A stretch of 51,153 nt of DNA from an uncultured Spirochaetaceae bacterium (GTDB lineage Bacteria > Spirochaetota > Spirochaetia > Sphaerochaetales > Sphaerochaetaceae), in contig CALXLD010000034.1 of assembly GCA_944389105.1 (NCBI GenBank), forward strand, positions 1 to 51,153. Reading direction: 5' to 3'. The notes under the pieces are model-generated. The model was not told where the DNA came from. It searched no databases and saw only the letters and a program-made list of their open reading frames with translations. The position numbers were made by a program, and so were the translations under genes. How positions within the stretch are numbered: position 1 is the first letter of the stretch; the number at the start of each line of letters is the position of its first letter. Shown here piece by piece: positions 14,551 through 28,496 of the stretch.

Positions 14551-14733
14551 ATTAAGTAATTCATCAGAAATAGTGATTCTGGATAAAACTTAATATTAAT
14601 ATTCCAAATTAAGAATATTATATTTAATTAAATAATTATATTTTCGTGAAGATTCATAATCATCTTTTTCGACCATGCTTATGTCTAAGGCGAGATTTAA
14701 ATCTTCATAGTAAGGAGAAGAAAGAAAATAGAC

Positions 14734-14764
14734 TTGACAATATTGAACGGGGGGGGGGTATATT
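14734..14764 (+). promoter_or_regulatory. Poly-G promoter, probably phase-variable (locus 1)
   Basis: TTGACA (14734-14739), then AATATTGAAC-type spacer, a run of ten G (14749-14758), then TATATT (14759-14764). The spacer is 19 bases at this G count; eight G would give the optimal 17. Upstream sequence (14570-14645) is very A/T-rich. The lipoprotein start is 37 bases downstream. Same architecture as 24193-24223. Confidence 0.75.
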
Positions 14765-14801
14765 AACAGCATTGAACAATAAGTTCTTATTGGAGGTTTT
14801 C

Positions 14802-16010
14802 ATGCAAAAGAAAATCATACGGGCAAGCGTTATTCTACTTGCTCTAGTTGTTCTTGCTGGTTGTCAGCCAGGATATCAGGGGATTCTATTGCCCCCTGGC
14901 ATATTCAACCCTTCTAATCCAGGAAACAGTGTAACTTATACTGTAACCATTGATTACAATGATAATGGTACTGAAAACAGAATTCTTACAGATCAGAAAA
15001 CACTTGTGAAACCTGCTGATCCGGTATGGGATGATGACCATGAATTTGCATACTGGACAATCAATGGCGTAAAGGTTGAGGATAGTCAGTGGGGATCAGC
15101 CCTCAGTGGAAATGTCACGCTTACTGCGGCTTGGATCAGTATTTATGATATCTTAGTTGAAATTCCTGGTTATTCTGATCATTTTTCTGCACCTAACAAT
15201 AACTATCAATTTGGCCAGAAAACTAATAAGGAGCTTTCGATTGATGGAAAAGATTTGATTAAAATCAGAAAATGGCAGGATATAACTACACCTTATAATC
15301 TTACACTTAAGAATATCATCTTTGAAAGTGGCATATCCATTCATGCTGAAAATACCGAAAATATTACAATCACAGTAGAGGGCTGTGAGATACATCCATG
15401 TCTGTATGAAGATCTGAAGCATGATAAACCTCAAAGAACAAGTAATGCAGGGGATGGACTTTGCCTAGCAATCGATACAACAACGGATCAGAATGCAGAC
15501 CACAGTACCAGAGGAAAGGTGAATATTGTTGTTAGAGATAATCATCTGATTGGAGATAATAATCCAGAGGCTCCTCGTAAGAATGGTGCAGATATAGATA
15601 GTGCAGTTATGAAGAGCAGAGGAAATGGAGTATCTCTTGGTAACCAGGCTGGTGGTGTTCCATGTCTTTCAGAGGCAGAAATAACAGGAAATATCTTTGA
15701 AGATCTTCGCGGAAATGCTCTTCAGCTGTACAGGATTAATGACGATATGAAAGTTACTGTTTCCAATAATCAGTTCATCAGCTGGGGAATCAATAAAGAT
15801 ACACTTTCCGGTGCAGAGACAGACTACGCAATACGAGGAGAGCTCTATAACGATGGTATTTCTGCTGATGTTATCATCCTGCGGGATAATTCGTATGCAA
15901 CTTCAATGACAGTAGAAGGTATCCAAAAAGATCTATCGGAATGTAAGGTTGCTATTAACTATTGGAATGGATCAACTTCTGCCCCTTATGATCAGTCAAT
16001 GGCAGAATAA
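14802..16010 (+). CDS. Surface lipoprotein with InlB-type repeat and right-handed beta-helix
   Basis: 402 residues from ATG 14802, which has TTGGAGGT upstream; the longer open frame would run through the promoter. A lipoprotein signal peptide ends in the lipobox VLAGC. About residues 40-115 form a Listeria-Bacteroides (InlB B-repeat-like) module (TVTIDYNDNGTENRIL ... GNVTLTAAW). The rest has the regular short strands and Asn-rich turns of a parallel beta-helix (NITITVEGCEIHP, VNIVVRDNHLIGDNN, EITGNIFEDLRGNALQL, VTVSNNQFISWG). This suggests a surface-exposed binding or polysaccharide-active protein, but no catalytic motif is evident. Expression is likely switched by the G tract in its promoter. 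A terminator follows. Confidence 0.85.
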   Translation: MQKKIIRASVILLALVVLAGCQPGYQGILLPPGIFNPSNPGNSVTYTVTIDYNDNGTENRILTDQKTLVKPADPVWDDDHEFAYWTINGVKVEDSQWGSALSGNVTLTAAWISIYDILVEIPGYSDHFSAPNNNYQFGQKTNKELSIDGKDLIKIRKWQDITTPYNLTLKNIIFESGISIHAENTENITITVEGCEIHPCLYEDLKHDKPQRTSNAGDGLCLAIDTTTDQNADHSTRGKVNIVVRDNHLIGDNNPEAPRKNGADIDSAVMKSRGNGVSLGNQAGGVPCLSEAEITGNIFEDLRGNALQLYRINDDMKVTVSNNQFISWGINKDTLSGAETDYAIRGELYNDGISADVIILRDNSYATSMTVEGIQKDLSECKVAINYWNGSTSAPYDQSMAE

Positions 16011-16031
16011 GACTATTCTATTATAATTATG

Positions 16032-16057
16032 CCCATCTCTTCGGAGGTGGGTTTTCT
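16032..16057 (+). terminator. Terminator of the first lipoprotein gene
   Basis: Stem CCCATCTC/GAGGTGGG with a TTCG tetraloop and TTTTCTTT tail. Between here and 16245 I see no credible gene; the small open frame starting at 16029 begins inside this hairpin. Confidence 0.9.
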
Positions 16058-16245
16058 TTACGTAGACTTGAGTATGGATTTGCCTGAAAGGCTAGAGTTT
16101 TTAGAGAATAAGTATTCAGATACTAATCGACATAATGTCAGTGTTTTAGAAAATATTTTTGCAGCATGCCGCACTTTTTTATTGTTGCTCTTTGAATCAT
16201 TTGTCCAAAATAGGGATTCAAGCTACAGGATATGTTGGCATAGAC

Positions 16246-16285
16246 AATAAAAAACCGAGGTGGAACTGTCCAGCCTCGGTTTTCT
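16246..16285. terminator. Bidirectional terminator, mainly for ackA
   Basis: Stem AAAACCGAGG (16251-16260) with CCTCGGTTTT (16274-16283); a T run follows on the minus strand, just past the ackA stop. Confidence 0.85.
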
Positions 16286-16299
16286 CTCTTTGATTATTC

Positions 16300-17664
16300 T
16301 CAGCAGCCTTTTACTGAGCATGAAGTCTTCTGTGGAGGAAGTGCGATTATTCTCTCCAGTTCTGGCTTCTTCTTGAGCTGTTCTTTAAGACCACGAGCAC
16401 GAGCCTTGTTCACATAATCCGGGTTCTCGAATGTATAGTGGAAATTTGTATGGATGTCATAAGTGCCGTTCATGAGAGCATATGCATCCTCTGTCATTAC
16501 AAGCTCTTCATCTGTCGGGATTACGAAAATCTTTACAGGGCTTTCATCCTTTGAGATGCATGTCTCCGCGTTGCGGCAGTGGGAAAGATCGTTCTTCTCC
16601 TTGTCAATCATGATTCCGAAGTTCTCAAGTCCTTCACAGGCACCATATCTGATATGTTCGCCCATCTCTCCGACGCCTGCTGTGAATACAAGTGCATCAA
16701 CTCTTCCGAGAAGCGCTGCATAAGCACCGATGTACTTCTTGATTCTGTGGATTTCCATATCAACGCCGAGCTGTGCTTTCTTGTCTCCGTTGAGAGCAGC
16801 CTGATGAACATCTCTTCTATCAGACATGCCACAGATACCGACAAGACCTGATTTCTTATTGAGATATGTATCCATGTCGCTTGCTGAAAGACCTGTGTTG
16901 TTGCAGATGTAAGGAATGATAGCCGGATCAAGATCGCCTGATCTTGTTCCCATAACAAGTCCCTCAAGCGGTGTGAGTCCCATTGATGTCTCAACACATA
17001 CTCCGTTCTTTACAGCACAGGCTGAAGCACCATTTCCGATGTGCATGATGATGACGTTTGTATCCTCATTCTTCTTTCCAAGAAGGAGTGCTGCACGCTT
17101 TGCACAGTAAAGGTGGCTTGTACCGTGGAAACCATAGCGGCGTACATTGTATTTTGTATACCACTCATAAGGAACAGCATACATGAAAGCCTCTTCAGGC
17201 ATTGTCTGGTGGAATGCTGTATCCATAACAATTGCGTGTGGGACATTCGGCATCAGCTTTCTTGCTGCTTCAATACCCATGATGTTTGCAGGCATGTGAA
17301 GAGGTCCAAGCGGGATGATTTCCTTAAGCTGCTCAACAACTTCATCTGTTACAAGTGTTGATTTCTTGAAAAGCTCTCCTCCATGGAGAACGCGGTGTCC
17401 TACAGCGCCTATCTCAGACAGTGATTTAATACAGCCATACTTCTCATCGACAAGCATCTTGAGTATCAGCTCTATAGCTTCTTTGTGTGTAGGGGATACA
17501 AAACGCTCTGTATATTTTTCCTTGCCGATTGAGTTCTGCTCGATTGTCGAGTATTCAAGACCAATGCGCTCTACAATACCAACACAGAGCACATCCTTCT
17601 CATCCCAGTCATATACCTGGTACTTCGCAGATGAACTGCCGCAGTTCAATGTAAGTATAACCAT
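16300..17664 (-). CDS. ackA: Acetate kinase
   Basis: Makes ATP and acetate from acetyl phosphate in fermentation. The 454-residue protein starts with [19 protein letters not shown] and has [42 protein letters not shown] and [13 protein letters not shown], all characteristic of the family. The core would end near residue 405; about 50 further residues follow ([18 protein letters not shown] to KTSCSVKGC), a Cys-containing extension beyond the usual ~400 residues. AGGAGAG precedes the ATG. A phosphotransacetylase gene is not adjacent. Confidence 0.96.
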
Positions 17665-17793
17665 ATTTATTCTCTCCTGAATTACGCTAGGGAAAGGTAT
17701 CAGAAAAAGAGAGGAAAGTCACTATGATGAAATGATTTCCTTTATTTTTTCTTTAATCCTGACCAAAGTTCTGCATCCCGCGGTATCTCTTAT

Positions 17794-18822
17794 ATGAAAA
17801 AACTATTGGCAATGGCTGGAATCGTGCTTGTATCGCTTCCCCTTTATCCTGCAGTGCTGTCCACTTCTGGTGGTGGGGCCTTTTCCTTTGAGAATGCTGC
17901 CCTGAATTTCCTTTCGGGAAGGATTTATATGGATCTTGGCTTCCTTTCCTTCGGCGAGATCGGGCAGACAGGAATGATCAAGGCTTTTGATAACCCTCAT
18001 CTGCCTCTTTTTTCTTTAAGTCCGGAGACAGGAAAGCCCAAGGGAGATGAAGAGGGCAGGAATGGCTTTGTTTTCTCTTTTGAAGATTTCTCATTTGTCT
18101 ATTCAGCTGATGAAAGGAGTCTTGCCGGAGTCTTTTTCGGAAATGGAGGCTTTGAACTGGCAATGATGGCTGCTTCCGGCTGGGAAAAAAGCTATGGCTT
18201 TCATGAGGATCCTGCGAGAACTGTCTGCTATGATACTCTATACGGCGGTGTTGTGCTCTCCTGGGATTTCTTTAGTGTCAGAGGGCTTGTTTCGTATGCA
18301 GAGGAAATAGGATTCAGAGGATCGGCTTCAGCTGCTGTGGAATATAAGGATTATTCGCTTAGCCTGTCATATGGATCCTTGATTGCACTCTATGAAGATA
18401 GTCCGGACAGCACATTCGGAATAAGCGGGAGTTTCGGCGATGATGGTTTTCTGTTTGTTTTCTCCATGAATTATGGCTCTGTTCCCGTGTTCAGTGAGGA
18501 TTATCTTGTAAGAGAAGCATATGCTGCTGCAAGGCTGGATCTTGGTTCTTTTCTCCTCTATTCGGAGATGGAGACCTCTTTTACCAGAAGCGGGAAAAGG
18601 CGCCATGATGAGAGTTTCTTTCTGGACTTGTCGTACCTAGTGCTTGGTTATGGAAGCGATGGCCTTGTCCTTGCTGTTGATTTCGGACATTTTGCACTGG
18701 GATATAAAGATGGTTCTCCATTCGTCTCAATGGAGTATGAAATGGAGGGAAATGGCTTCAGCTTTCTTGCTGAGGTTTCCACTGATGGTGGTTTTGACCT
18801 TGCAATCAGAGTTCATCTCTGA
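17794..18822 (+). CDS. Exported beta-rich protein of unknown function
   Basis: 342 residues with a Sec signal peptide (MKKLLAMAGIVLVSLPLYPA). The mature part is full of alternating aromatic and small residues and strand-turn patterns (FFSVRGLVSYAEEIGFRGS, YKDYSLSLSYGSLIALY, LGYGSDGLVLAVDFGHFAL) and ends in FDLAIRVHL, compatible with an outer-membrane beta-barrel. No known family is recognised. There is no convincing Shine-Dalgarno before the ATG. It converges on murB with a 17-base overlap and no hairpin between them. Confidence 0.7.
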   Translation: MKKLLAMAGIVLVSLPLYPAVLSTSGGGAFSFENAALNFLSGRIYMDLGFLSFGEIGQTGMIKAFDNPHLPLFSLSPETGKPKGDEEGRNGFVFSFEDFSFVYSADERSLAGVFFGNGGFELAMMAASGWEKSYGFHEDPARTVCYDTLYGGVVLSWDFFSVRGLVSYAEEIGFRGSASAAVEYKDYSLSLSYGSLIALYEDSPDSTFGISGSFGDDGFLFVFSMNYGSVPVFSEDYLVREAYAAARLDLGSFLLYSEMETSFTRSGKRRHDESFFLDLSYLVLGYGSDGLVLAVDFGHFALGYKDGSPFVSMEYEMEGNGFSFLAEVSTDGGFDLAIRVHL

Positions 18823-19699
18823 AAGAACCGAGAATGGTTATCGAGGTATCCAGTTCAATCCCAAGCTTTTCCTTTATGGTCTTTCTTCCACGCTGTATCA
18901 GCGTGTAGATTTCCTGAGAGCTGCATCCTGGATATGTGAGTATTGAATTCGGCTGGTACTCTGAGAATTCTGCTCTGCTACCGTTTTTCCCCGTAAGTCC
19001 TGCGAGTTTTATAGCTTCTGAAGCTTTCATGGTCCTGCTGTCACGGAAAATCTCCCCGGAGAATCTTCTTGATGGTGGAATGTACATCTTTTCGACGTAT
19101 TTCTCCTTCCTTTCGCGCGCTTCGGCTGAAGCTCTGGAAGGAGTCAGCCTGAGAGCTACAGAGAGAATAAGGCAGTCTGTCAGGAATGTTCCCCTGCTGA
19201 AGAAATCATAGAAGAACGGTCTTCTGTGTATTTCGCCATTCAGCGTAAGGTAGTCTGCATAAAAGAACATATCGGATATCGATCTGCTGTTCGCGGAGGC
19301 ATTTACAGTAACAGCTCCTGCGATTGTCCCGGGTATCCCTGCAATCTCCTCTAGCCCTATCAGATTATGGTCTATTGCCTGGTTTATGACGTTATCAAGT
19401 GTTTCACCGGAGGAGGCTATCAGGAGATCACCTTTTATTGACATGCCTTTCATGCCGCAGGCAGAAAGCACAAGACCAGGGATCCCTTCATCCGAGACCA
19501 GAAGGTGGGTCCCTGCACCGATCACGGTTACGGAAAGTCCTTTTGCATATGCCATTTCCAGAGCATTGATTGCATCATAGGCATTCCCAGGTTCTGCATA
19601 ATACTCAGCTTTTCCTCCTGTAGAGAAGGAAGAATGCTTTTTCATGTCCATATTTTCCGTAATTGCAAAGCAACTGAGTTTCTGTCTTGTAGATACCAT
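18806..19699 (-). CDS. murB: MurB-like UDP-N-acetylenolpyruvoylglucosamine reductase, catalytic residues altered
   Basis: 297 residues. The FAD-binding half is well conserved: HSSFSTGGKAEYY, VIGAGTHLLVSDEGIPGLVLS, GLEEIAGIPGTIAGAVTVNA. The end KTIKEKLGIELDTSI also matches MurB. By eye against S. aureus MurB, however, the YRxS motif reads FFSR, the catalytic Ser of CGSVF reads Glu (SGEIF), and the Glu before xRIIG reads Ser (DTSITILG). All three catalytic positions seem replaced, so reductase activity is doubtful or the chemistry differs. The gene has an extended -10 six bases before ATG and no Shine-Dalgarno. The homology call is sure; the function is not. Confidence 0.8.
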   Translation of the reverse strand: MVSTRQKLSCFAITENMDMKKHSSFSTGGKAEYYAEPGNAYDAINALEMAYAKGLSVTVIGAGTHLLVSDEGIPGLVLSACGMKGMSIKGDLLIASSGETLDNVINQAIDHNLIGLEEIAGIPGTIAGAVTVNASANSRSISDMFFYADYLTLNGEIHRRPFFYDFFSRGTFLTDCLILSVALRLTPSRASAEARERKEKYVEKMYIPPSRRFSGEIFRDSRTMKASEAIKLAGLTGKNGSRAEFSEYQPNSILTYPGCSSQEIYTLIQRGRKTIKEKLGIELDTSITILGSFRDEL

Positions 19700-19705
19700 G
19701 GCTGA

Positions 19706-19714
19706 ATTATAGCA
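19706..19714 (-). promoter_or_regulatory. Extended -10 promoter of murB, possibly leaderless
   Basis: TGCTATAAT on the minus strand, with TATAAT ending six bases before the murB ATG. No good -35 is needed for an extended -10. The predicted start point falls on the ATG. Confidence 0.5.
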
Positions 19715-19752
19715 GAATGGAAGTACAGAAACAGTCTTTTAATCGATTCTTG

Positions 19753-19782
19753 TTGAGATTAAGAGCCGATTAGGAATATTAT
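19753..19782 (+). promoter_or_regulatory. Promoter of cysS
   Basis: TTGAGA, 18-base spacer, TATTAT at 19777-19782. The ATG at 19781 lies within the -10, which supports 19802 as the real start. Confidence 0.5.
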
Positions 19783-19801
19783 GTCTTTTCAAGGAGGGCT
19801 T

Positions 19802-21205
19802 ATGAAGCTATATAACACAATGTCGAGGCGTATCGAGGATTTTGTTCCCATTGTTCCGGGTCAGGTCTCGATGTACTGTTGCGGCCCTACAGTTTATAAC
19901 TATGCGCATATTGGCAATCTCAGAACATACATCTTTGAGGATATTCTCAAGAGGACTCTTCGCCGTGCTGGATACAGTGTAAAGCATGTAATGAATATTA
20001 CTGATGTCGGGCATCTTACAGGTGATGGGGATGATGGCGAAGATAAGATGGAGAAGACGGCCAGGGAAACTGGAAAGAGTGTCTGGGATATTGCGGCATT
20101 CTATACAGAGGCTTTCTTCAATGATGAGAAAGCTCTCAATATCATCAGGCCAGACATTGTCTGCAAGGCAACTGATCATATCCAGGATATGATTGATCTT
20201 ATCAAGAGGCTTGAAGACAGGGGGCATACCTACACTGCAGGGGGAAATGTTTATTTCTCCATTGATTCAATCGATGATTACGGCAAGCTTGCCCGTCTCA
20301 ATATAGATGAGCTTAAGAGCGGGGCAAGGATTGAAGTCGATTCAAATAAGAAGAATCCAAAGGATTTTGTTCTCTGGTTCACCAATTCCAAGTTTGCTGG
20401 GCAGGCAATGACATGGGATTCTCCATGGGGAAGAGGATATCCGGGATGGCATATTGAATGTTCTGCAATGTCAATGAAGTACCTGGGAGAGCATTTTGAT
20501 ATCCACTGCGGCGGAATAGATGCAATTCCTGTACATCATACAAATGAGATTGCCCAGTCTGAGGCAGCAACTGGAAAAACCTGGGTTAACTACTGGTGCC
20601 ATGGCGAGTTCCTGCTTATGGGGAACGCAAAGATGTCTAAATCCTCGGGAGGATTCGTGACTCTTCAGACTTTGATTGGCAAAGGCTATAATGCCCTTGA
20701 TTATCGCTATTTCTGTCTTACCGGACATTATAGAAGCCAGCTGAGATTCTCATACGATGCACTTGATGCTGCAAAGAGCGCAAGGGAAGGCATTATGGAG
20801 AGAATCGGACAGCTTAAGAAAGAGGCTGCCCCTGCAGATCAGCCTTCTTCCAAGGCAGAAGAATACATGAAGGCTTTTGATGAAGCCATGGAGAATGACC
20901 TTGGCGCACCTCAGGCACTTTCTCTTCTCTGGAAGATGCTTAAGGATGGGGAGCTTTCTGCCGCTGATAAGCTTGCAGCTGCTTACCATATGGATGAAAT
21001 TCTTGGTTTAGGACTGAAGGAAGCTGTAGCACAGAAGGCGGAAGCTGCAGGAACGGAAGAGGAAATGAAGCTTCTTGAAGAAAGAGCTCAGGCGAAGAAA
21101 GCAAAGGATTTCAAGAGAGCTGATGAGATACGCGACGAGCTTAAACGGAGGGGATATATTGTCAAGGATACTCCTTCAGGTGCGATTCTTGAGCGAATTG
21201 TGTAA
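19802..21205 (+). CDS. cysS: Cysteinyl-tRNA synthetase
   Basis: Class I aminoacyl-tRNA synthetase that charges tRNA-Cys. I choose ATG 19802 (467 residues), which has AAGGAGGGC directly upstream, over an earlier ATG at 19781. Seen: YCCGPTVYNYAHIGNLRTY with the HIGH-type motif HIGN (36-39), WHIECSAMSMKYLG and GIDAIPVHHTNEIAQ with zinc ligands, and the KMSKS loop AKMSKSSGG. The C-terminal helical domain (LLEERAQAKKAKDFKRADEIRDELKRRG) is typical. It is followed after 27 bases by the ECF sigma gene, probably in one transcript. Confidence 0.97.
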   Translation: MKLYNTMSRRIEDFVPIVPGQVSMYCCGPTVYNYAHIGNLRTYIFEDILKRTLRRAGYSVKHVMNITDVGHLTGDGDDGEDKMEKTARETGKSVWDIAAFYTEAFFNDEKALNIIRPDIVCKATDHIQDMIDLIKRLEDRGHTYTAGGNVYFSIDSIDDYGKLARLNIDELKSGARIEVDSNKKNPKDFVLWFTNSKFAGQAMTWDSPWGRGYPGWHIECSAMSMKYLGEHFDIHCGGIDAIPVHHTNEIAQSEAATGKTWVNYWCHGEFLLMGNAKMSKSSGGFVTLQTLIGKGYNALDYRYFCLTGHYRSQLRFSYDALDAAKSAREGIMERIGQLKKEAAPADQPSSKAEEYMKAFDEAMENDLGAPQALSLLWKMLKDGELSAADKLAAAYHMDEILGLGLKEAVAQKAEAAGTEEEMKLLEERAQAKKAKDFKRADEIRDELKRRGYIVKDTPSGAILERIV

Positions 21206-21232
21206 CCTTTTGCGGAGCTGAGTGTTAATAAT

Positions 21233-21766
21233 ATGGAGATAAAGAGCACTGACCGAGATGATTTCAGACGCATCTACGATGAGAATTATCATCTTCTGAT
21301 ACAGGTGATTATGCACATCGTATATAACATTGAAATCGCAGAAGATCTCACGCAGGAAGCCTTTGAGAGGTTCTATGTTAAAAACATGACCTTTCCCAGT
21401 GCAGATGATGCCAAGTACTGGCTGATAAGGGTAGCCAAGAATCTTGCGCTCAATCATGTAAGGCGCAACAAGCGTGAGATAGAGATGGTGGAAAAGGCCA
21501 GGCATAATCCATCGCTTTCCGCTGAGATGCGAGATGCATCGCAGGCAGCTGTGGAGGCAGATGAAAAGAGGGCGGTGAGAATGGCTATTGAAAGCCTGCC
21601 GGAGAACCTTAGGATGGTTATTCAGCTTAAGGAATATTCCGGACTGGATTATAAGGCGATAGCTAAGGTGCTTGGTATTTCCGAGACTAATGTAAAGGTG
21701 AGGGTTTACAGGGCCAGGAAGAAGCTTGAAGAGGCCCTTTCTACGGAGGATAGGGATGTGTATTGA
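21233..21766 (+). CDS. ECF-type RNA polymerase sigma factor
   Basis: 177 residues. Region 2 is seen in YNIEIAEDLTQEAFERFY and YWLIRVAKNLALNHVRRNKR; region 4 in LPENLRMVIQLKEYSGLDYKAIAKVLGISETNVKVRVYRARKKL. It would direct transcription of a small stress or envelope regulon. Its 3' end overlaps the start of an anti-sigma gene by 11 bases, the usual pairing. There is only a distant GGAG before the ATG, so translation may depend on read-through from cysS. No autoregulated promoter is obvious upstream. Confidence 0.92.
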   Translation: MEIKSTDRDDFRRIYDENYHLLIQVIMHIVYNIEIAEDLTQEAFERFYVKNMTFPSADDAKYWLIRVAKNLALNHVRRNKREIEMVEKARHNPSLSAEMRDASQAAVEADEKRAVRMAIESLPENLRMVIQLKEYSGLDYKAIAKVLGISETNVKVRVYRARKKLEEALSTEDRDVY

Positions 21767-22304
21767 TTCGCAGATGCTGTCAGCTTATCTCGATGGAGAG
21801 CTTCCAGAGCCATACAGGACACAGGTGGAGGAGCACCTTGAACACTGCGCGGCTTGCCGGAAGCATCTTGAGGATATGAAAGCTCTGGATAAGAGAATCC
21901 TGGACGCGGCTTTTTCGGAGGAGCTTCTGTTGCGTAATAAAGACAGGATTTACTCGCTTCTCGATAAGAAGTACTTCCAGAGCGGCAAGAAGGTCAGCTT
22001 TATCCGAAGACGCCTGGAGATATCGTTGCCGTCGTTGATTACTGCGGCGGCAGCGGTTGTCTTCATCTTTATCGGCGGCTTTATGTTCTTCGGGACATCA
22101 GCAGAGCAGACTGAGGATATTCTTCCATCCTTTGCGCTTCAGGCTGACAGTTCCAATGTCCACTATGTCTCTGATACTGCAGGTCTTGATAATTATACGC
22201 TTGAAGAGATACTTCAGTATCTTGACAGTAAGGGCTACAATGTGGATATCTCGATAAAAGGTCTACAGCCTCTTGATACTACAGTATCGGAGGATGCTGA
22301 ATAA
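21756..22304 (+). CDS. Zinc-finger anti-sigma factor
   Basis: 182 residues from ATG 21756 with GGAGGA upstream; an earlier in-frame start at 21726 lies deep in the sigma gene and is less likely. The N-terminal ZAS domain has H-x3-C-x2-C (HLEHCAAC), followed by helices, one transmembrane segment (LITAAAAVVFIFIGGFMFFG), and a ~70-residue external part. It should bind and hold the sigma factor encoded just upstream at the inner membrane. The outer part has no recognisable sensor domain. Overlap with the sigma gene implies coupled synthesis. Confidence 0.88.
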   Translation: MCIDSQMLSAYLDGELPEPYRTQVEEHLEHCAACRKHLEDMKALDKRILDAAFSEELLLRNKDRIYSLLDKKYFQSGKKVSFIRRRLEISLPSLITAAAAVVFIFIGGFMFFGTSAEQTEDILPSFALQADSSNVHYVSDTAGLDNYTLEEILQYLDSKGYNVDISIKGLQPLDTTVSEDAE

Positions 22305-22337
22305 AACGCCTAGCCATTGGGGATTGGAGATAGGTGT

Positions 22338-22361
22338 GCAGGTCGCTTGACCTGCTTTTTC
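22338..22361 (+). terminator. Terminator of the sigma/anti-sigma transcript
   Basis: Stem GCAGGTC/GACCTGC with GCTT loop, five T and CTTT following. Confidence 0.9.
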
Positions 22362-22362
22362 T

Positions 22363-22647
22363 TTATCTGAAGGCTGCCTGAAACAGTGCATCGTCTTCCG
22401 GAAAATGGGTTACAAAACCTATTGCTATTTCATGCCCGGTTGCTTCTATGATCCGTCTTGCACCTGCTTCCCCGAATGCTCCGCATAGCTCGATTGCTGT
22501 ATATCCCTCATTTTTAAGGCGTACTGCAGCAGAACAAGCTTCCTCGATATCCTTCACGCCGATCATCCTGGTCTCTTCAGAAGAGGAGAACCGTACATCA
22601 TCCTTTCCGGAGCTGTACGGTCCCATTATCATGAATGCGTATTTCAT
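22363..22647 (-). CDS. Small DUF6506-like protein
   Basis: 94 residues starting MKYAFMIMGPYSSG, with AVRLKNEGYTAIELCGAFGE and GARRIIEATGHEIAIGFVTH. From memory this pattern fits the DUF6506 family of small cytosolic proteins; the function is unknown. The start codon overlaps the glgA stop by one base (TAATG), so it is translated with glgA. No signal peptide or metal motif is seen apart from a single Cys. Confidence 0.75.
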   Translation of the reverse strand: MKYAFMIMGPYSSGKDDVRFSSSEETRMIGVKDIEEACSAAVRLKNEGYTAIELCGAFGEAGARRIIEATGHEIAIGFVTHFPEDDALFQAAFR

Positions 22648-24104
22648 TACATCCTCGAATAGAGATCCTTGTAGATCTCAGCCGATTTCTTCCATGACCA
22701 GTCTTCTTCCATTCCTCTCTTCTGCATATGCTCCCAGAGCTCATGGCGGCTGTACCAGATCCACTCTGCATGCTTTATCCTGTCAAGCAGATCTCCTCCT
22801 GTATAGTTGTGGAATGAGAATCCTGTGCCTTTGTCATCATATTCATTGAATGGTTTGACAGTATCTTTCAGTCCTCCGATTTCATGGACGATAGGAATCA
22901 TGCCATAGCGCAGAGAGATAAGTTGTGTCAATCCACATGGTTCAAATGCAGAAGGAACGAGGATTGCATCTGCTCCTGAATAGATTCTGTGCGCAAGTGC
23001 ATCTGAATATGTTATTACAGCTCTTACTTTATCTGGATACTTGCCCTGATAATAGCGGAACATGTTCTCATAGTACGGCTCGCCTGTTCCAAGGACTATC
23101 AGATTGACATTGAGGGAAAGAATCTGATCCATTACCTGATCGATGATATCAAGGCCCTTCTGATCCGTGAGGCGTGAAACTATTGCAAGGGTAAGGACAT
23201 CAGGATTCTCAGGAAGTCCCAGTTCCTTCTGCAATGCGACCTTATTCTTCTTTCTCTTTGATTTCCTGTCCTTGATAGAATAGTTGTTCTTTATGTTCTT
23301 ATCTGTCTTTGGATCCCATACTTTGTAATCTATGCCATTGATGATTCCCCAGAGTCTCTCATGCCTCCATTTCAGGATATCTTCAAGGCCCTCTCCAAAC
23401 TCCGGTGTCTGTATTTCCCAGGCATAGCTGTTGCTTACAGTCGTTATGTAATCAGAGTAGACGAGGCCGCCCCTCATCATTGTGCAGTTCCAGTCATTCT
23501 TCGGTATTGATCTGTCCTGATATGGACTGACAAGAAGTCCTGGTTCGAATACTTCATCAGGAAGTGCGGAAACCCATCTTATATGCCCTACATCCCATTC
23601 TCCTTTGAAACGGATGTTGTGGATTGTGAATACTGTCCTTATTCCCCTGAAGAACGGATCTCCCTGGAAGACTGTATTGAGGTAGACCGGAATAAGGGAA
23701 GTCTGCCAGTCATGGCAATGGATTATGTCCGGCCTGAACCCGATGAGGGGGAGTGCAGAAAGCACAGCCTTGGAGAAATATGCGAATCTCTCCAGATCCT
23801 GATACAGATCGTAATAAGGTACAAGACCTCCGAAATACTGTTCGTTATCTATGAAATAATAGGTTATTCCATCATGCTCAAGGCGATGCACGCCTACATA
23901 TATCCTGTTATCCATCTGGAAATAGTAGATGCATTCCATCTTCTCTCTCCATTCTGGCTTTATTGCATGGTAATTCGGAATAATCACACGGATATCATAT
24001 TCATCTTTATCAAAAGCCTGTGGAAGGCTCCCAACTACATCAGCAAGCCCTCCTGTTTTTACAAACGGCACACACTCTGAAGCAGCAAAGAGTATCTTCT
24101 TCAT
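22647..24104 (-). CDS. glgA: Glycogen synthase (ADP-glucose type, GT5)
   Basis: Extends alpha-1,4-glucan chains from ADP-glucose. Start chosen at ATG 24104 (485 residues) because GGAGG is six bases upstream of it but abuts the earlier ATG at 24110. N-terminal KTGGLADVVGSLP binds the nucleotide sugar; HCHDWQT, TIHNIRFKGEW, VSRLTDQKGLD and PSAFEPCGLTQLISLRYGMIPIV follow in order. The C-terminal half contains an inserted Lys-rich stretch (SIKDRKSKRKKNK). A perfect TATAAT sits at 24132-24137 on this strand. Other glg genes are not nearby. The poly-G promoter of the divergent lipoprotein lies in the same intergenic region. Confidence 0.95.
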   Translation of the reverse strand: MKKILFAASECVPFVKTGGLADVVGSLPQAFDKDEYDIRVIIPNYHAIKPEWREKMECIYYFQMDNRIYVGVHRLEHDGITYYFIDNEQYFGGLVPYYDLYQDLERFAYFSKAVLSALPLIGFRPDIIHCHDWQTSLIPVYLNTVFQGDPFFRGIRTVFTIHNIRFKGEWDVGHIRWVSALPDEVFEPGLLVSPYQDRSIPKNDWNCTMMRGGLVYSDYITTVSNSYAWEIQTPEFGEGLEDILKWRHERLWGIINGIDYKVWDPKTDKNIKNNYSIKDRKSKRKKNKVALQKELGLPENPDVLTLAIVSRLTDQKGLDIIDQVMDQILSLNVNLIVLGTGEPYYENMFRYYQGKYPDKVRAVITYSDALAHRIYSGADAILVPSAFEPCGLTQLISLRYGMIPIVHEIGGLKDTVKPFNEYDDKGTGFSFHNYTGGDLLDRIKHAEWIWYSRHELWEHMQKRGMEEDWSWKKSAEIYKDLYSRM

Positions 24105-24192
24105 TCTCATCCTCCAATATCAACATTATTGATTATACCGCTACTTAATACTGAAGCATAGGAAACTTTTATCAAAAAAATGAAGAAATCCC

Positions 24193-24223
24193 TTGACAAA
24201 ATAGAACCGGGGGGGGGTAGGCT
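24193..24223 (+). promoter_or_regulatory. Poly-G promoter, probably phase-variable (locus 2)
   Basis: TTGACA (24193-24198), AAATAGAACC, a run of nine G (24209-24217), then TAGGCT (24218-24223) in the -10 position. The spacer is again 19 bases. The -10 is weak (T, A and last T only). The lipoprotein ATG is 33 bases downstream. Confidence 0.7.
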
Positions 24224-24256
24224 GTCTATAGAAAAATTTTCGGAGGAAAAAACAAG

Positions 24257-25420
24257 ATGAAGAAAACTATTCTTGTTACTTTGGTCGCAGCGATGATGCT
24301 TTTTGCATTTGTTGCTTGTGATAGCAATGCGGGCTATCCTGTCCTTAGAGATACAGGAATTGCGACGACAACAACTGAATATCTTGTAGGAGAAGAAATC
24401 AATCCTGCAGATTTCACCTTTGTTGCATATAATTATGATGGGACTACAAGGGAAATTCCTGCAGCGGATGTAAAACTTGTTTCAGGCGATACAGAAGATG
24501 CCGGTGATGTTTCTCTTAAGTTTTCTTGGAATGGAATTACATTTGATGGAAATGTGACAGTTTATGCAGTTGACAGCATTGAAGTTGATGCTACTAATGC
24601 TTCAGAAAAAGTATATTATACAACAACTGATGCTGATTATAAGAAAGTTGATCTTGATGGAGTTGTTATCACTGCAAAGTATACCGTTGATGGTGTAGAG
24701 AAGACAAAAATTGTTGATTCTTCCCTTGCAACAGGGGCAATTGCTGATTGGGAGACTGCTGATGATGAGGCAACAGTAACAGTAACTTTTGCAACGAAAA
24801 CAGATGAGTATTCTGTTGCTCTTGAAGAGAATTTGATTTCTTCAATAACATTTTCGGTTGCAGATGCAACAAAGAAGTATTATGTAGATGACTCCGTTAC
24901 AGCTGCAGCATTTAAGATGGTTGGAAAGATGCTGAATGGTGAGGAGAAAACATTAGTTGCTGGTACAGACTATAAGTATTACAACGCGACTTCACAGAAC
25001 TATGAATTGAGTGCTCCTGCTGTTGATTCTTCAAAAGCCTCTACAATTACTGTTAGAGCTAAGTATGTTGGTGATGATGGTGTTGTTGGGCTTACAAGAG
25101 AAGGCTATCAGGCCAACATTGTAATTAACGAAGATAGGGTTGTAGGAATTATTGTTGATTCTTCTGCTCTCACAAGTACTCCAATTGATACAAAGAATAC
25201 GAATGGTTATGGCCTCACTGTAAATTATGAAATGGAGAGTGGCAAGAAGGGTGATAGCCTCACATATAATGCTGCAGAAGACGGTTTTACTGTAACTCCT
25301 GATGAGTTTAAGTCAAAGGATAACAATGGTTCTTATGAAGTTGGTGACAGAGTACAGATTACTGTAATTGCGGGAAGCTATACAGAGACTGTCCAGACAA
25401 CTCTTGTAGCAAAAATCTGA
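24257..25420 (+). CDS. Surface lipoprotein with Ig-like repeats
   Basis: 387 residues. Lipoprotein signal peptide MKKTILVTLVAAMMLFAF ends in the lipobox FVAC (Cys21). The rest is built of beta-sandwich modules of 75-90 residues with bacterial Ig-like features (EYLVGEEINPADFTFVAYNYDG; VYYTTTDADYKKVDLDGVVI; KKYYVDDSVTAAAFKMVGK), low in Cys and rich in Thr, Val, Asp. The modules resemble Big_3-type domains that bind surfaces or sugars. GGAGGAAAAAAC precedes the ATG. With the poly-G promoter this is a candidate phase-variable surface antigen. Specific function unknown. Confidence 0.85.
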   Translation: MKKTILVTLVAAMMLFAFVACDSNAGYPVLRDTGIATTTTEYLVGEEINPADFTFVAYNYDGTTREIPAADVKLVSGDTEDAGDVSLKFSWNGITFDGNVTVYAVDSIEVDATNASEKVYYTTTDADYKKVDLDGVVITAKYTVDGVEKTKIVDSSLATGAIADWETADDEATVTVTFATKTDEYSVALEENLISSITFSVADATKKYYVDDSVTAAAFKMVGKMLNGEEKTLVAGTDYKYYNATSQNYELSAPAVDSSKASTITVRAKYVGDDGVVGLTREGYQANIVINEDRVVGIIVDSSALTSTPIDTKNTNGYGLTVNYEMESGKKGDSLTYNAAEDGFTVTPDEFKSKDNNGSYEVGDRVQITVIAGSYTETVQTTLVAKI

Positions 25421-25433
25421 TTGGAATCATAAC

Positions 25434-25464
25434 CATGTCCATTCATGATTTTTGGATGGACATG
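25434..25464. repeat. Inverted repeat between lipoprotein and HTH gene
   Basis: Perfect 9-bp arms CATGTCCAT/ATGGACATG separated by 13 bases. No T run follows, so it is not a standard terminator. It ends 17 bases before the HTH gene start and could be an RNA hairpin or a protein site. Confidence 0.6.
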
Positions 25465-25481
25465 TGTCTAAGGAGGACGAA

Positions 25482-25691
25482 ATGGAAGAAAAGACAACGT
25501 CCCTCCGACAGAGGATTCCTAATGAGAAGCGTCAGGAATGCTTGAAGCTCTTTGAGCAGGGATACGGATACAAGAAGACCGCTCAGCTTGCAGGGCTGAA
25601 CACATATACAGTCCGTGAGTACAAGCGGAAGTTCGCTGCAGGAGATATGTCCTGGGCAGCGAGAGGGAGCAACGCTCCCACAATGAATTAG
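25482..25691 (+). CDS. Orphan helix-turn-helix protein, transposase-OrfA-like
   Basis: 69 residues from ATG 25482, with AAGGAGGACG upstream; an in-frame start at 25452 overlaps the inverted repeat. The core (KRQECLKLFEQGYGYKKTAQ, then LNTYTVREYKRKFAAGD) is a homeodomain-like HTH of the kind found at the N-terminus of IS3-type OrfA transposases. No second transposase frame, terminal repeats or duplication is visible around it, so it is either an IS remnant or a domesticated small DNA-binding protein. A good ribosome-binding site and its own terminator suggest it is expressed. Transcription may come from the poly-G lipoprotein promoter. Confidence 0.65.
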   Translation: MEEKTTSLRQRIPNEKRQECLKLFEQGYGYKKTAQLAGLNTYTVREYKRKFAAGDMSWAARGSNAPTMN

Positions 25692-25737
25692 GTTGAAGTG
25701 ACGATAACGTATTCGTCTCTTCCAAAGATTATCTGTT

Positions 25738-25771
25738 GGTCCATCTGGTTTCAGATGGGCCTTCTGTTTTC
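25738..25771 (+). terminator. Terminator after the HTH gene
   Basis: Ten-bp stem GGTCCATCTG/CAGATGGGCC (one G-T pair) with GTTT loop, then TTCTGTTTTC. Confidence 0.8.
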
Positions 25772-25792
25772 TGAGCTTATTACTAATCTATG

Positions 25793-25844: not shown

Positions 25845-28496
25845 ATGAAAGCAGTAGAACTTGCGCGTAACTACGATCCTAAGGATTTTGAGGAAAGGAT
25901 ATATGCAGAGTGGAAGAGAAAGAAGGAATTTGGACCTTCTTCCTCTGATAAAGAACATTTTTCAGTTGTGATGCCGCCTCCAAATGTCACCGGTATTCTC
26001 CACATGGGACATGCCCTGAACAACAGCCTTCAGGATATTATTGTCAGATACCACAGGATGCTTGGCCGTCCGACTCTCTGGGTTCCTGGTACCGATCATG
26101 CAGGAATTGCAACACAGAATGTTGTAGAGAGACAGCTCCAGAAAGAAGGTCTCAGACGTCAGGACCTCGGACGTGAGAAATTCATTGAACGTACATGGCA
26201 GGTTAAGGAAAAGCATCACGATATCATCAAGAAACAGCTCGAGAAGATGGGATGCTCCTGTGACTGGGATCATGAGAGATTTACGATGGATGAAGGTCTT
26301 TCCCGTGCTGTAAGAGAAGCTTTCGTTACACTTTATGAACGTGGTCTTATCTATAAGGGAAAGTATCTTGTGAATTACTGTCCGAAGTGCGGGACAGCCC
26401 TTGCCGATGATGAGGTTGAGTATGAGAATGTTCCGGGCAAGCTCTATGATGTGAGATATCCATATGCTGATGGTTCTGGGTTCATCACAGTTGCCACAAC
26501 ACGGCCGGAGACAATGTTCGGAGATGTTGCTGTAGCAGTCAATCCTGAGGATGAGAGGTATACAGACATCGTCGGAAAAGAGCTGCTTCTTCCTCTTACA
26601 GACAGAAGGATTCCTATTATCACCGATAGTTTTGTAGATAAGGAGTTCGGAACTGGAATGGTTAAGATCACTCCAGCTCATGATCCTAATGACTGGGAAT
26701 GTGGCAGAAGGCATAACCTGGAAGCTATAAATCTTCTCAATCCAGATGGAACACTCAATGAGAATGTCCCTGAGAAATACAGAGGAATTAAAGCTGAAGA
26801 GGCTAGGAAGCTTGTCGTCGAGGATCTTGAGAAGGGCGGCTACCTTGTAAAGACAACCGACCATGCACATGATGTTGGACACTGCTACCGCTGTCATACA
26901 ACAGTTGAGCCATATCTTTCAGAGCAGTGGTTCGTAAGCATGAAATCCCTTGCTGACAAGGCTCTCGATGCCTGGAGAAAGGGAGATATCGTATTCTATC
27001 CGCGAAGATGGGAAAACACGTATGTCCACTGGATGGAGACAATCCGTGACTGGTGTATTTCCCGTCAGCTATGGTGGGGACACCGTATTCCAGTCTGGTA
27101 TTGCCAGGATTGCGGAAAGATGATTGTTTCCAGAGAGAACCCGGATGAGTGCCTTGAATGCCACAGCCATAACCTGAAGCAGGATGAAGACGTTCTCGAT
27201 ACCTGGTTCTCATCATGGCTCTGGCCATTCTCTACGCTTGGCTGGCCTGATAAAACACCTGATCTTGAGAAGTTCTTCCCGACAAATACTCTTGTTTCTG
27301 CATATGACATAATCTTCTTCTGGATTTCCAGAATGATCATGGCTTCAGAGGAATTCCTGGGTAAGGCTCCATTTAGGGATATTGTCATTACAGGACTTGT
27401 CAGGGATATTCAGGGAAGGAAGATGTCAAAGTCGCTTGGAAATGGCATCGATCCTATTGAAGTCATTGACAAATATGGCGCGGATGCGATGAAGTTCACT
27501 CTCTGCTACCTTGCTGCGCAGGGGCAGGATGTTATGATTGATATGGACTCCTTCCGTCTGGGCTCAAGGTTTGCAAATAAGATCTGGAATGCAACAAGAT
27601 ACCTCCTTATGAATATCGAGGGTAGGAATCTTGTGGATATCCAGCGGGATAAGCTCACCATAATGGATAGATGGATTTATTCAAGGTTCAATGATGCTGC
27701 CCGCGATATTGCTTCGGCTATGGAGAATTATCGCTTCAATGAAGCAGCGCAGACTATCTATTCTTTCTTCTGGAATGATTTCTGTGACTGGTATATTGAG
27801 GCATCCAAGGGACGCCTGAACCATGGAAGCGATGAGGAGAAGGATCTTCAGGTATCTATTCTTATGGATATTCTTGAAAAGAGCATGAGGCTCATGCATC
27901 CATTCCTTTCATTCATCACGGAAGAGATTTATCAGAAGCTTCCGAATCATAAGGGAGATGTTATTTCTGCCTCCTATCCGGTCTTTGATCCATCGCTGGA
28001 GGATAAGGAAGCAGATTCTCTTGTATCGATGCTGCAGGAAGCTGCACGTCTTGTCCGCGCGGCCCGTTCAAGCCTTCAGATTGCACCGGAGAAGAAGCTT
28101 CGTGTTGTCATAAGGATTGCCGGAGATAATCCTGCTGCAGCTTTCATGAGGGATGAAGCTTCTCTCCTGTCTGTATTCATGACGGCTTCCAGCGTGACCA
28201 TCGATACAGATGGAAGCGAGGATATTAAGGGAGCATTGCCTGCAACTGGTATTGGATTCGAAGCTTTTGTCTTTGTCAGGGCAGCAATCGATGTAGAGGC
28301 AGAGATAAAGAAGCTTCAGGGTGAGATTGAGAAAAACGAGAAGCTTCTAGAAGGTTCACTGAAGAAGCTTTCAAATGAGAACTTCATCTCGCATGCAAAA
28401 CCTGAGGCTGTGGAGAAGGAGAAATCCAAGAAAGCAGAGTTCGAAGATAAGATACAGAAGAGCAGGGAACACATTGAACTTCTGAAATCATTCTGA
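25845..28496 (+). CDS. valS: Valyl-tRNA synthetase
   Basis: 883 residues from ATG 25845, with TGGAGG upstream; the open frame extends back to 25698 but that part covers the preceding terminator and promoter. Class I features: PPPNVTGILHMGHALNNS (HIGH-type HMGH), the editing domain with TTRPETMFGDVAVAVNP, a zinc-type region (YCPKCG and YCQDCG ... CLECH), KMSKSLGNGIDP, and the anticodon-binding domain. The C-terminal ~65 residues form the tRNA-binding coiled coil (AEIKKLQGEIEKNEKLLEGS). Two Cys clusters are those of the ValS subgroup with extra zinc sites. No T-box leader is seen. Confidence 0.97.
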   Translation: MKAVELARNYDPKDFEERIYAEWKRKKEFGPSSSDKEHFSVVMPPPNVTGILHMGHALNNSLQDIIVRYHRMLGRPTLWVPGTDHAGIATQNVVERQLQKEGLRRQDLGREKFIERTWQVKEKHHDIIKKQLEKMGCSCDWDHERFTMDEGLSRAVREAFVTLYERGLIYKGKYLVNYCPKCGTALADDEVEYENVPGKLYDVRYPYADGSGFITVATTRPETMFGDVAVAVNPEDERYTDIVGKELLLPLTDRRIPIITDSFVDKEFGTGMVKITPAHDPNDWECGRRHNLEAINLLNPDGTLNENVPEKYRGIKAEEARKLVVEDLEKGGYLVKTTDHAHDVGHCYRCHTTVEPYLSEQWFVSMKSLADKALDAWRKGDIVFYPRRWENTYVHWMETIRDWCISRQLWWGHRIPVWYCQDCGKMIVSRENPDECLECHSHNLKQDEDVLDTWFSSWLWPFSTLGWPDKTPDLEKFFPTNTLVSAYDIIFFWISRMIMASEEFLGKAPFRDIVITGLVRDIQGRKMSKSLGNGIDPIEVIDKYGADAMKFTLCYLAAQGQDVMIDMDSFRLGSRFANKIWNATRYLLMNIEGRNLVDIQRDKLTIMDRWIYSRFNDAARDIASAMENYRFNEAAQTIYSFFWNDFCDWYIEASKGRLNHGSDEEKDLQVSILMDILEKSMRLMHPFLSFITEEIYQKLPNHKGDVISASYPVFDPSLEDKEADSLVSMLQEAARLVRAARSSLQIAPEKKLRVVIRIAGDNPAAAFMRDEASLLSVFMTASSVTIDTDGSEDIKGALPATGIGFEAFVFVRAAIDVEAEIKKLQGEIEKNEKLLEGSLKKLSNENFISHAKPEAVEKEKSKKAEFEDKIQKSREHIELLKSF

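Follow-up and report, generated by a model that had tools for sequence, protein, structure and literature searches.

Poly-G promoters before a genome-wide set of lipoprotein genes, probably switched through promoter spacing, in an uncultured Spirochaetaceae bacterium

The stretch analysed here, called the window below, is the whole of contig CALXLD010000034.1 (51,153 nucleotides) of an uncultured Spirochaetaceae bacterium (assembly GCA_944389105.1). Two lipoprotein genes in it lie behind predicted promoters in which a run of G's separates the -35 from the -10 hexamer, and the same layout recurs across the genome. We consider it very probable that these promoters mark a genome-wide set of lipoprotein genes, with 8 to 12 consecutive G's in the stretch that separates the hexamers, and that slippage in the runs would switch the genes by altering hexamer spacing. 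The genome comprises 2.13 Mb in 47 contigs and is 91% complete; the window is contig C34, and the L, G and C numbers used below are our labels for loci, genomes and contigs. Each species is represented by one assembly, and start codons and promoters are predicted throughout.

At both window sites the promoter begins with TTGACA, continues with a short, A/T-rich segment ending in GAAC(C), and places the G run directly before the -10 hexamer, with a spacer of 19 bases each time. An original prediction, made from the letters of the window, had described this order correctly, apart from a pre-run segment of ten bases that holds for site 2; site 1 has nine. At site 1, between a recQ-like helicase gene and ackA, TTGACA (14734-14739) is followed by ATATTGAAC (9 bases), ten G's (14749-14758) and TATATT (14759-14764). 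At site 2, between glgA and valS, TTGACA (24193-24198) is followed by AAATAGAACC (10 bases), nine G's (24209-24217) and TAGGCT (24218-24223). Each promoter does precede a lipoprotein gene, as had been proposed, the lipobox being LAGC in lipoprotein 1 (MQKKIIRASVILLALVVLAGC) and FVAC in lipoprotein 2 (MKKTILVTLVAAMMLFAFVAC). When all 40 non-overlapping open reading frames (ORFs) of at least 100 residues in the window were screened automatically for a lipobox within the first 100 residues, two passed, and these are the two genes behind the poly-G promoters. Beta-rich modules had been expected in both proteins. For lipoprotein 2 this is borne out by a match to Big_3 (E = 9e-5) and by a structure model consisting of a string of beta domains, mostly beta strands (mean predicted local distance difference test score, pLDDT, 86.5); its fold matches to S-layer proteins, cadherins and LigA of Leptospira have significant E-values with TM-scores near 0.2, and therefore tell the domain type and not the architecture. 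For lipoprotein 1 the expectation finds weak backing: the match to Flg_new has an E-value of 0.007, below the family cut-off, and PF09479 was recorded on one of ten homologues among the matches listed. The features of the two sites are:

14734..14764, forward strand: predicted poly-G promoter 1 (TTGACA, 9 bases, ten G's, TATATT; spacer 19)
14802..16010, forward strand: lipoprotein gene 1, 402 residues, ATG at 14802, lipobox LAGC, weak Flg_new (B-repeat) match
16031..16062, forward strand: terminator-like hairpin with T-rich tail, 3' of lipoprotein gene 1
approx. 14553..16283, no strand: segment between the recQ-like gene and ackA, absent in five of six relatives
24193..24223, forward strand: predicted poly-G promoter 2 (TTGACA, 10 bases, nine G's, TAGGCT; spacer 19)
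24257..25420, forward strand: lipoprotein gene 2, 387 residues, ATG at 24257, lipobox FVAC, tandem immunoglobulin (Ig)-like (Big_3) domains by model
25432..25467, forward strand: predicted stem-loop between the lipoprotein stop and the ribosome site of the next gene
25482..25691, forward strand: gene for a helix-turn-helix (HTH) protein of 69 residues, ribosome site AAGGAGG at 25470-25476
25738..25771, forward strand: intrinsic-terminator-like hairpin (25738-25761) with T-rich tail, 3' of the HTH gene
approx. 24147..25785, no strand: cassette between glgA and valS, absent in ten of ten relatives (ends not placed to the base)

Genome-wide, the pattern TTGACA-N4-12-G7 occurs in nine places. A gene with a lipobox follows all nine, behind runs of 8 to 12 G's and with spacers of 17, 18, 19 (five times), 20 and 23 bases, so that the further copies with mixed run lengths foreseen in the original prediction do exist. 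As a control for chance, each pattern was also searched in reversed form; the reversed pattern is absent from this genome, and the reversed controls for genome, genus and class together rule out a chance pairing of two sites. Runs of eight or more G's, counted on either strand, number 25, and 20 of them stand at lipoprotein genes, in the promoter or at the gene start, by the automatic test (a few of its calls, such as L119, L157 and L177, are doubtful, and one gene, L114:3001, which it missed and which has by eye the look of a lipoprotein gene, is outside the 20). By comparison, of 147 ORFs with no run close by, 16 pass the same lipobox test (Fisher test, 3e-12), this background being drawn from loci of four genomes that were chosen around G runs and are not a random sample. 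Read one by one, the 25 runs comprise 12 upstream of a lipoprotein start, one poly-C form on the opposite strand, eight in coding sequence, and four others: one at a gene for a PapD-like chaperone, two at contig edges, and one that is unexplained. The poly-C form is a mirror promoter, TTGACA-CTA-C10-GTTGCA-TATACT, upstream of a lipoprotein gene on the opposite strand (L115:4555, at C24:72045-72075).

The eight coding runs, of 8 or 9 G's, lie between a predicted start codon and the body of an ORF, and most of these ORFs are lipoproteins (the loci include L112:2458, L114:3001 and L114:5804). Relative to a predicted upstream start, the assembly has five of them in frame and the other three out of frame; the upstream ATG lacks a ribosome site in several cases, L117:4085 and the doubtful L119 being examples. 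At L121 the run encodes the residues directly before the lipobox cysteine. Since promoter runs and 5' coding runs are found in one genome, it appears that a single lipoprotein repertoire is switched in two ways, at transcription and by reading frame. Upstream of the PapD-like chaperone gene, poly-G followed by TA is seen in five species (L106:4012, on contig C6 of this genome, and L081, L089, L166 and L206); the loci are orthologous, and the run is kept at 8, 9 or 10 G's between diverged flanks. This run suggests that a pilus-type system may be switchable as well.

The layout extends well beyond this genome. TTGACA-N7-12-G8 is present in 34 of 48 genomes of the genus, its reversed form in 0 of 48. 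Of 394 genomes in the class, 76 contain a stricter form with TANNNT added, namely 23 of 35 in the genus and 53 of 359 others (a split counted by eye in the table), with one match for the reversed form. In six genomes outside the genus, for which 55 sites were listed and 30 loci fetched, a lipoprotein gene follows at 22 of the 29 distinct loci read. The share of runs that stand at lipoprotein genes is 20/25, 13/22, 10/18 and 13/15 in four genus genomes with the HTH gene, and 5/15 and 2/9 in two without it. Mirror poly-C promoters occur in six of the 48 genus genomes (L270-L275; reversed control, none), where a lipoprotein gene follows five and a gene for another secreted protein the sixth. On contig C57 of the sister genome G018 (L189, L190), runs of nine and eleven G's lie close upstream of two glycosyltransferase-like genes. 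A collection-wide search for the pattern returned five loci (L100 to L104). Two of them, L101 and L103, hold the cassette described below, and the Methanosarcina locus L104, which has no -10-like hexamer, was taken as chance. L100 and L102, from metagenome-assembled genomes (MAGs) labelled Lachnospiraceae and Bacilli, read TTGACA-N10-G9 or G8, then TATAAT or TACAAT, with other genes downstream; the layout may exist outside the spirochaetes.

To judge from its sequence, site 2 is a cassette made up of promoter, Ig-domain lipoprotein gene, stem-loop, HTH gene and terminator. Six closely similar cassettes, site 2 included, are present in this genome, each with the promoter TTGACAAAAYNGAACC-G-TAG, a common signal peptide and a trailing HTH gene for about 63-70 residues (the C29 copy is cut by the contig end). 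Two spirochaete MAGs (L101, L103), whose labels are uncultured Spirochaetaceae and Spirochaetales, carry the same cassette. Across eight cassettes, these two among them, the lipoproteins diverge in the mature part, with about 20% identity as against 56% in the first 26 columns. The idea of a copied cassette behind both promoters thus holds for site 2 and, at site 1, for the promoter layout alone; the protein there is unrelated and no HTH gene accompanies it. Other cassettes have stem-loops at the same place as site 2, with different sequence, and of 32 lipoprotein-HTH segments, taken from this genome and from others, 30 reach a folding z <= -2 relative to 60 mononucleotide shuffles (the two remaining are L235 and L252). 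A search of the window against Rfam at the gathering threshold gave tRNA only, hence no listed RNA element at the cassette. Variant copies were also seen: at L238 (C37:57839) the single long G run is replaced, in the promoter of a lipoprotein-HTH cassette, by two shorter ones of 6 and 7, and at L237 (C10:7330) the HTH gene follows a lipoprotein-like ORF of 173 residues that has neither signal peptide nor poly-G promoter, possibly a broken or silent copy.

The HTH gene has 11 copies in this genome and is present in 30 of the 48 genus genomes. It occurs together with the promoter pattern in 29, alone in one, and is missing from five with the pattern and 13 without (Fisher test, 5e-7, kinship ignored). 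Retrieval by the HTH gene alone gave 16 distinct loci in which the upstream ORF is complete; 15 of these ORFs are lipoproteins, and a run of at least seven G's precedes 14. The exceptions are the truncated lipoprotein copy at L237 and L250, which has no run. A further 19 HTH loci were not judged: in 11 the ORF runs off the locus (six have a lipobox, two of these with a run), and eight are at an edge. The 69-residue protein is predicted to adopt a helix-turn-helix fold and to bind DNA. Its structure model is small and helical, with block pLDDT of 83-91 over residues 11-60 and low-confidence ends; it matches HTH_23 with E = 8e-4, below cut-off, and Foldseek gave only weak matches of the model to HTH proteins (best E 0.4). 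A sequence search of PDB with the HTH profile returned nothing significant, and listings of the open-licence literature contained no paper dealing with this genus or with the HTH pairing.

Both loci are empty in relatives. Between glgA and valS the cassette is absent in all ten relatives that have both flanks on one contig (12 were examined, two of them without the right flank). Between recQ and ackA the gene is absent, with a gap of 98-158 bp, in five of the six relatives with both flanks (8 examined), and in the sixth, other sequence takes up 675 bp. Gain in this lineage, over loss, would be the simpler reading at both loci. The empty glgA-valS sites would also suit a transposon-like cassette, moved by an HTH protein that is a transposase relic and carrying the poly-G promoter as a passenger. 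The HTH protein has weak matches to HTH_Tnp_1 and transposase families, and an ORF 44% identical to it starts beside another G run at contig edges (L119:4628-4895, L269). In G061 (L157, L162, L174) the bases preceding that run are found again near contig edges; this diverged locus may be an insertion sequence from which the cassette HTH gene derives. We nevertheless regard a transposon-like nature of the cassette as unlikely. Of a transposon the cassette has an HTH domain only and no catalytic transposase gene: no more than 153 bases lie between the HTH stop (25691) and the most likely valS start (ATG at 25845), and the terminator-like hairpin is among them. Across 23 copies the HTH gene has a median dN/dS (nonsynonymous to synonymous rate ratio) of 0.10, over 118 of 253 pairs, which indicates purifying selection. 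Inspection by eye of the glgA-valS junctions, which have diverged, showed neither a target duplication nor a terminal repeat, no systematic search being made, and collections of phages, plasmids and viral contigs contained no relative of the HTH protein at the thresholds used.

Spacing itself can be followed across the genus. At least 117 promoters listed in 18 genomes have runs of 8 (19 promoters), 9 (74), 10 (23) or 11 (1) G's, and spacers of 15 (2), 16 (5), 17 (7), 18 (27), 19 (67) or 20 (9) bases. In six genomes, promoters among those listed have identical pre-run bases and -10 hexamers and differ in run length. Of the promoters with a nine-base pre-run segment, 13 have a run of 9 and 16 a run of 10; of those with a ten-base segment, 50 have a run of 9 and 6 a run of 10 (Fisher test, 3.6e-5, among the promoters listed, with kinship ignored and rows with lengths other than 9 or 10 left out). 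Run length would in this way compensate for the length of the pre-run segment, so that total spacing tends to be kept; the test is supportive and not decisive. The modal spacing is 19 in the genus and, among the sites listed, 15-16 in five of six genomes outside it, where the pattern used is blind to spacers below 15; both values are off 17.

A G run might also regulate by itself, as a binding site or a G-quadruplex, with its length incidental. Both the run and its position are conserved, in that TA directly follows 20 of the 25 runs of this genome. In the excerpts available from a study of Treponema pallidum, the poly-G of tprL lies outside the spacer and its length affects activity all the same, and a CRP homologue acts at tpr promoters (PMC7864442). 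However, there are also spacers in which the coding strand carries the tract as poly-C, which speaks for spacing over a G-specific signal, and the mirror promoters disfavour a wholly G-specific one. Total spacing, not run length, tends to be kept, and for the eight runs in the 5' coding part of ORFs a frame effect is simpler. We judge this explanation to be quite improbable. Still harder to credit, and in our view highly improbable, is a single duplicated gene family whose G runs are inherited neutral repeats without switching: the six HTH cassettes do have promoter and signal peptide in common, but the layout stands before unrelated lipoproteins and a chaperone gene, precedes other lipoproteins in other genera and families (the 22 of 29 loci read), and varies in run length between otherwise alike promoters.

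Several observations weigh against a spacing switch shared by a lipoprotein set. The -10 hexamers are mostly TAGNCT, a poor match to the sigma-70 consensus, and a plain sigma-70 scan with spacers of 16-18 picks up neither of the two promoters in the window. The run lengths were read from a metagenome assembly and may be wrong by one. The association between run length and segment length takes no account of genome kinship, and substitution at the run edge alone can keep total spacing. Outside the genus, the modal spacing of 15-16 in five of the six genomes (among the sites listed) is not the 19 found within it, and the class-wide pattern had TANNNT built in as a requirement. Some TTGACA runs of sister genomes precede genes that are not for lipoproteins (L155, L161, L199), and HTH-lipoprotein pairs with no run of seven or more in view were found at L178 (second pair), L183 (both in G018) and L250. 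Finally, site 1 carries no HTH gene.

With these points weighed, switching through hexamer spacing remains the reading we prefer. The predicted promoters hold the G run between the -35 and -10 hexamers, as in the TP0126 and porA type, and, likewise as in that type, they stand before envelope-type (lipobox) genes, at nine of nine sites, the surface location being presumed. RNA polymerase would start at the poly-G promoters, and slippage would vary run length within a population; run length would set the -35/-10 spacing and with it promoter strength, as reported for TP0126 and porA; and the lipoproteins would reach the cell surface. With a spacing of 19, above the 17-base optimum, the prediction for both promoters of the window is weak activity or the off state in most of the cells assembled. 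An HTH protein would be made only when its own cassette is on, and would bind DNA and act back on the set; such feedback on other cassettes is put forward as a hypothesis. A fuller version, which we offer tentatively and hold to be rather doubtful, is a self-referring switch network: each cassette that slips on would make its own copy of the HTH protein along with its lipoprotein, this copy would act on the shared promoters of the others, and random slippage would thereby yield a display of Ig-domain lipoproteins that is ordered, or nearly exclusive to one at a time; whole cassettes would meanwhile hop from one chromosomal site to another within the genus.

The HTH gene, the stem-loop, the runs in coding sequence and the empty sites in relatives all go beyond the original prediction. 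With dozens of lipoprotein genes behind it in a single genus, and with its recurrence across many genomes in the class, the layout has the look of a means of varying lipoproteins that is widespread among spirochaetes. The pairing with an HTH gene, moreover, allows a direct test of coordination among independent phase-variable loci, an open question for contingency genes.

To our knowledge, poly-G promoter switching in spirochaetes has been known from T. pallidum genes only; new here are the scale of the set, a cassette that looks mobile, and the HTH gene partnered with it. The porA gene of Neisseria meningitidis is a single gene in another phylum, and we know of no cassette for it. It resembles the present promoters in the poly-G tract of its spacer, whose length sets transcription according to the excerpts available (PMC7864442). 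The same excerpts describe TP0126 of T. pallidum, an OmpW homologue with poly-G between the -35 and -10 hexamers and transcription that is best at 17-base spacing (PMC7864442). The likeness is close, in that both are spirochaete cases of poly-G between the hexamers before a surface or envelope protein gene. The difference is that TP0126, as far as those excerpts go, is one of a few unrelated poly-G genes in a pathogen, whereas the promoters predicted here belong to a repeated lipoprotein set, consisting in part of HTH cassettes, in an uncultured spirochaete. For tprE, tprG, tprJ and tprL, G-run length is reported to change the promoter activity of surface protein genes, the first three being permissive at eight or fewer G's (PMC7864442, in the part available); in tprL, unlike here, the run overlaps the -10 region and spacing is not the mechanism. 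Work on bovine and human treponemes (PMC8049484) likewise deals with spirochaete genomes, in which tract distributions differ between species; the portion of that text available concerns tracts and pseudogenes and describes no lipoprotein promoter set. With the homopolymeric tracts of coding genes, as treated in the accessible portion of Orsi 2010 (PMC2831843), the likeness lies in the eight 5' coding runs of this genome, placed as frame switches would be, and the difference in that promoter runs and coding runs here coexist in one lipoprotein repertoire.

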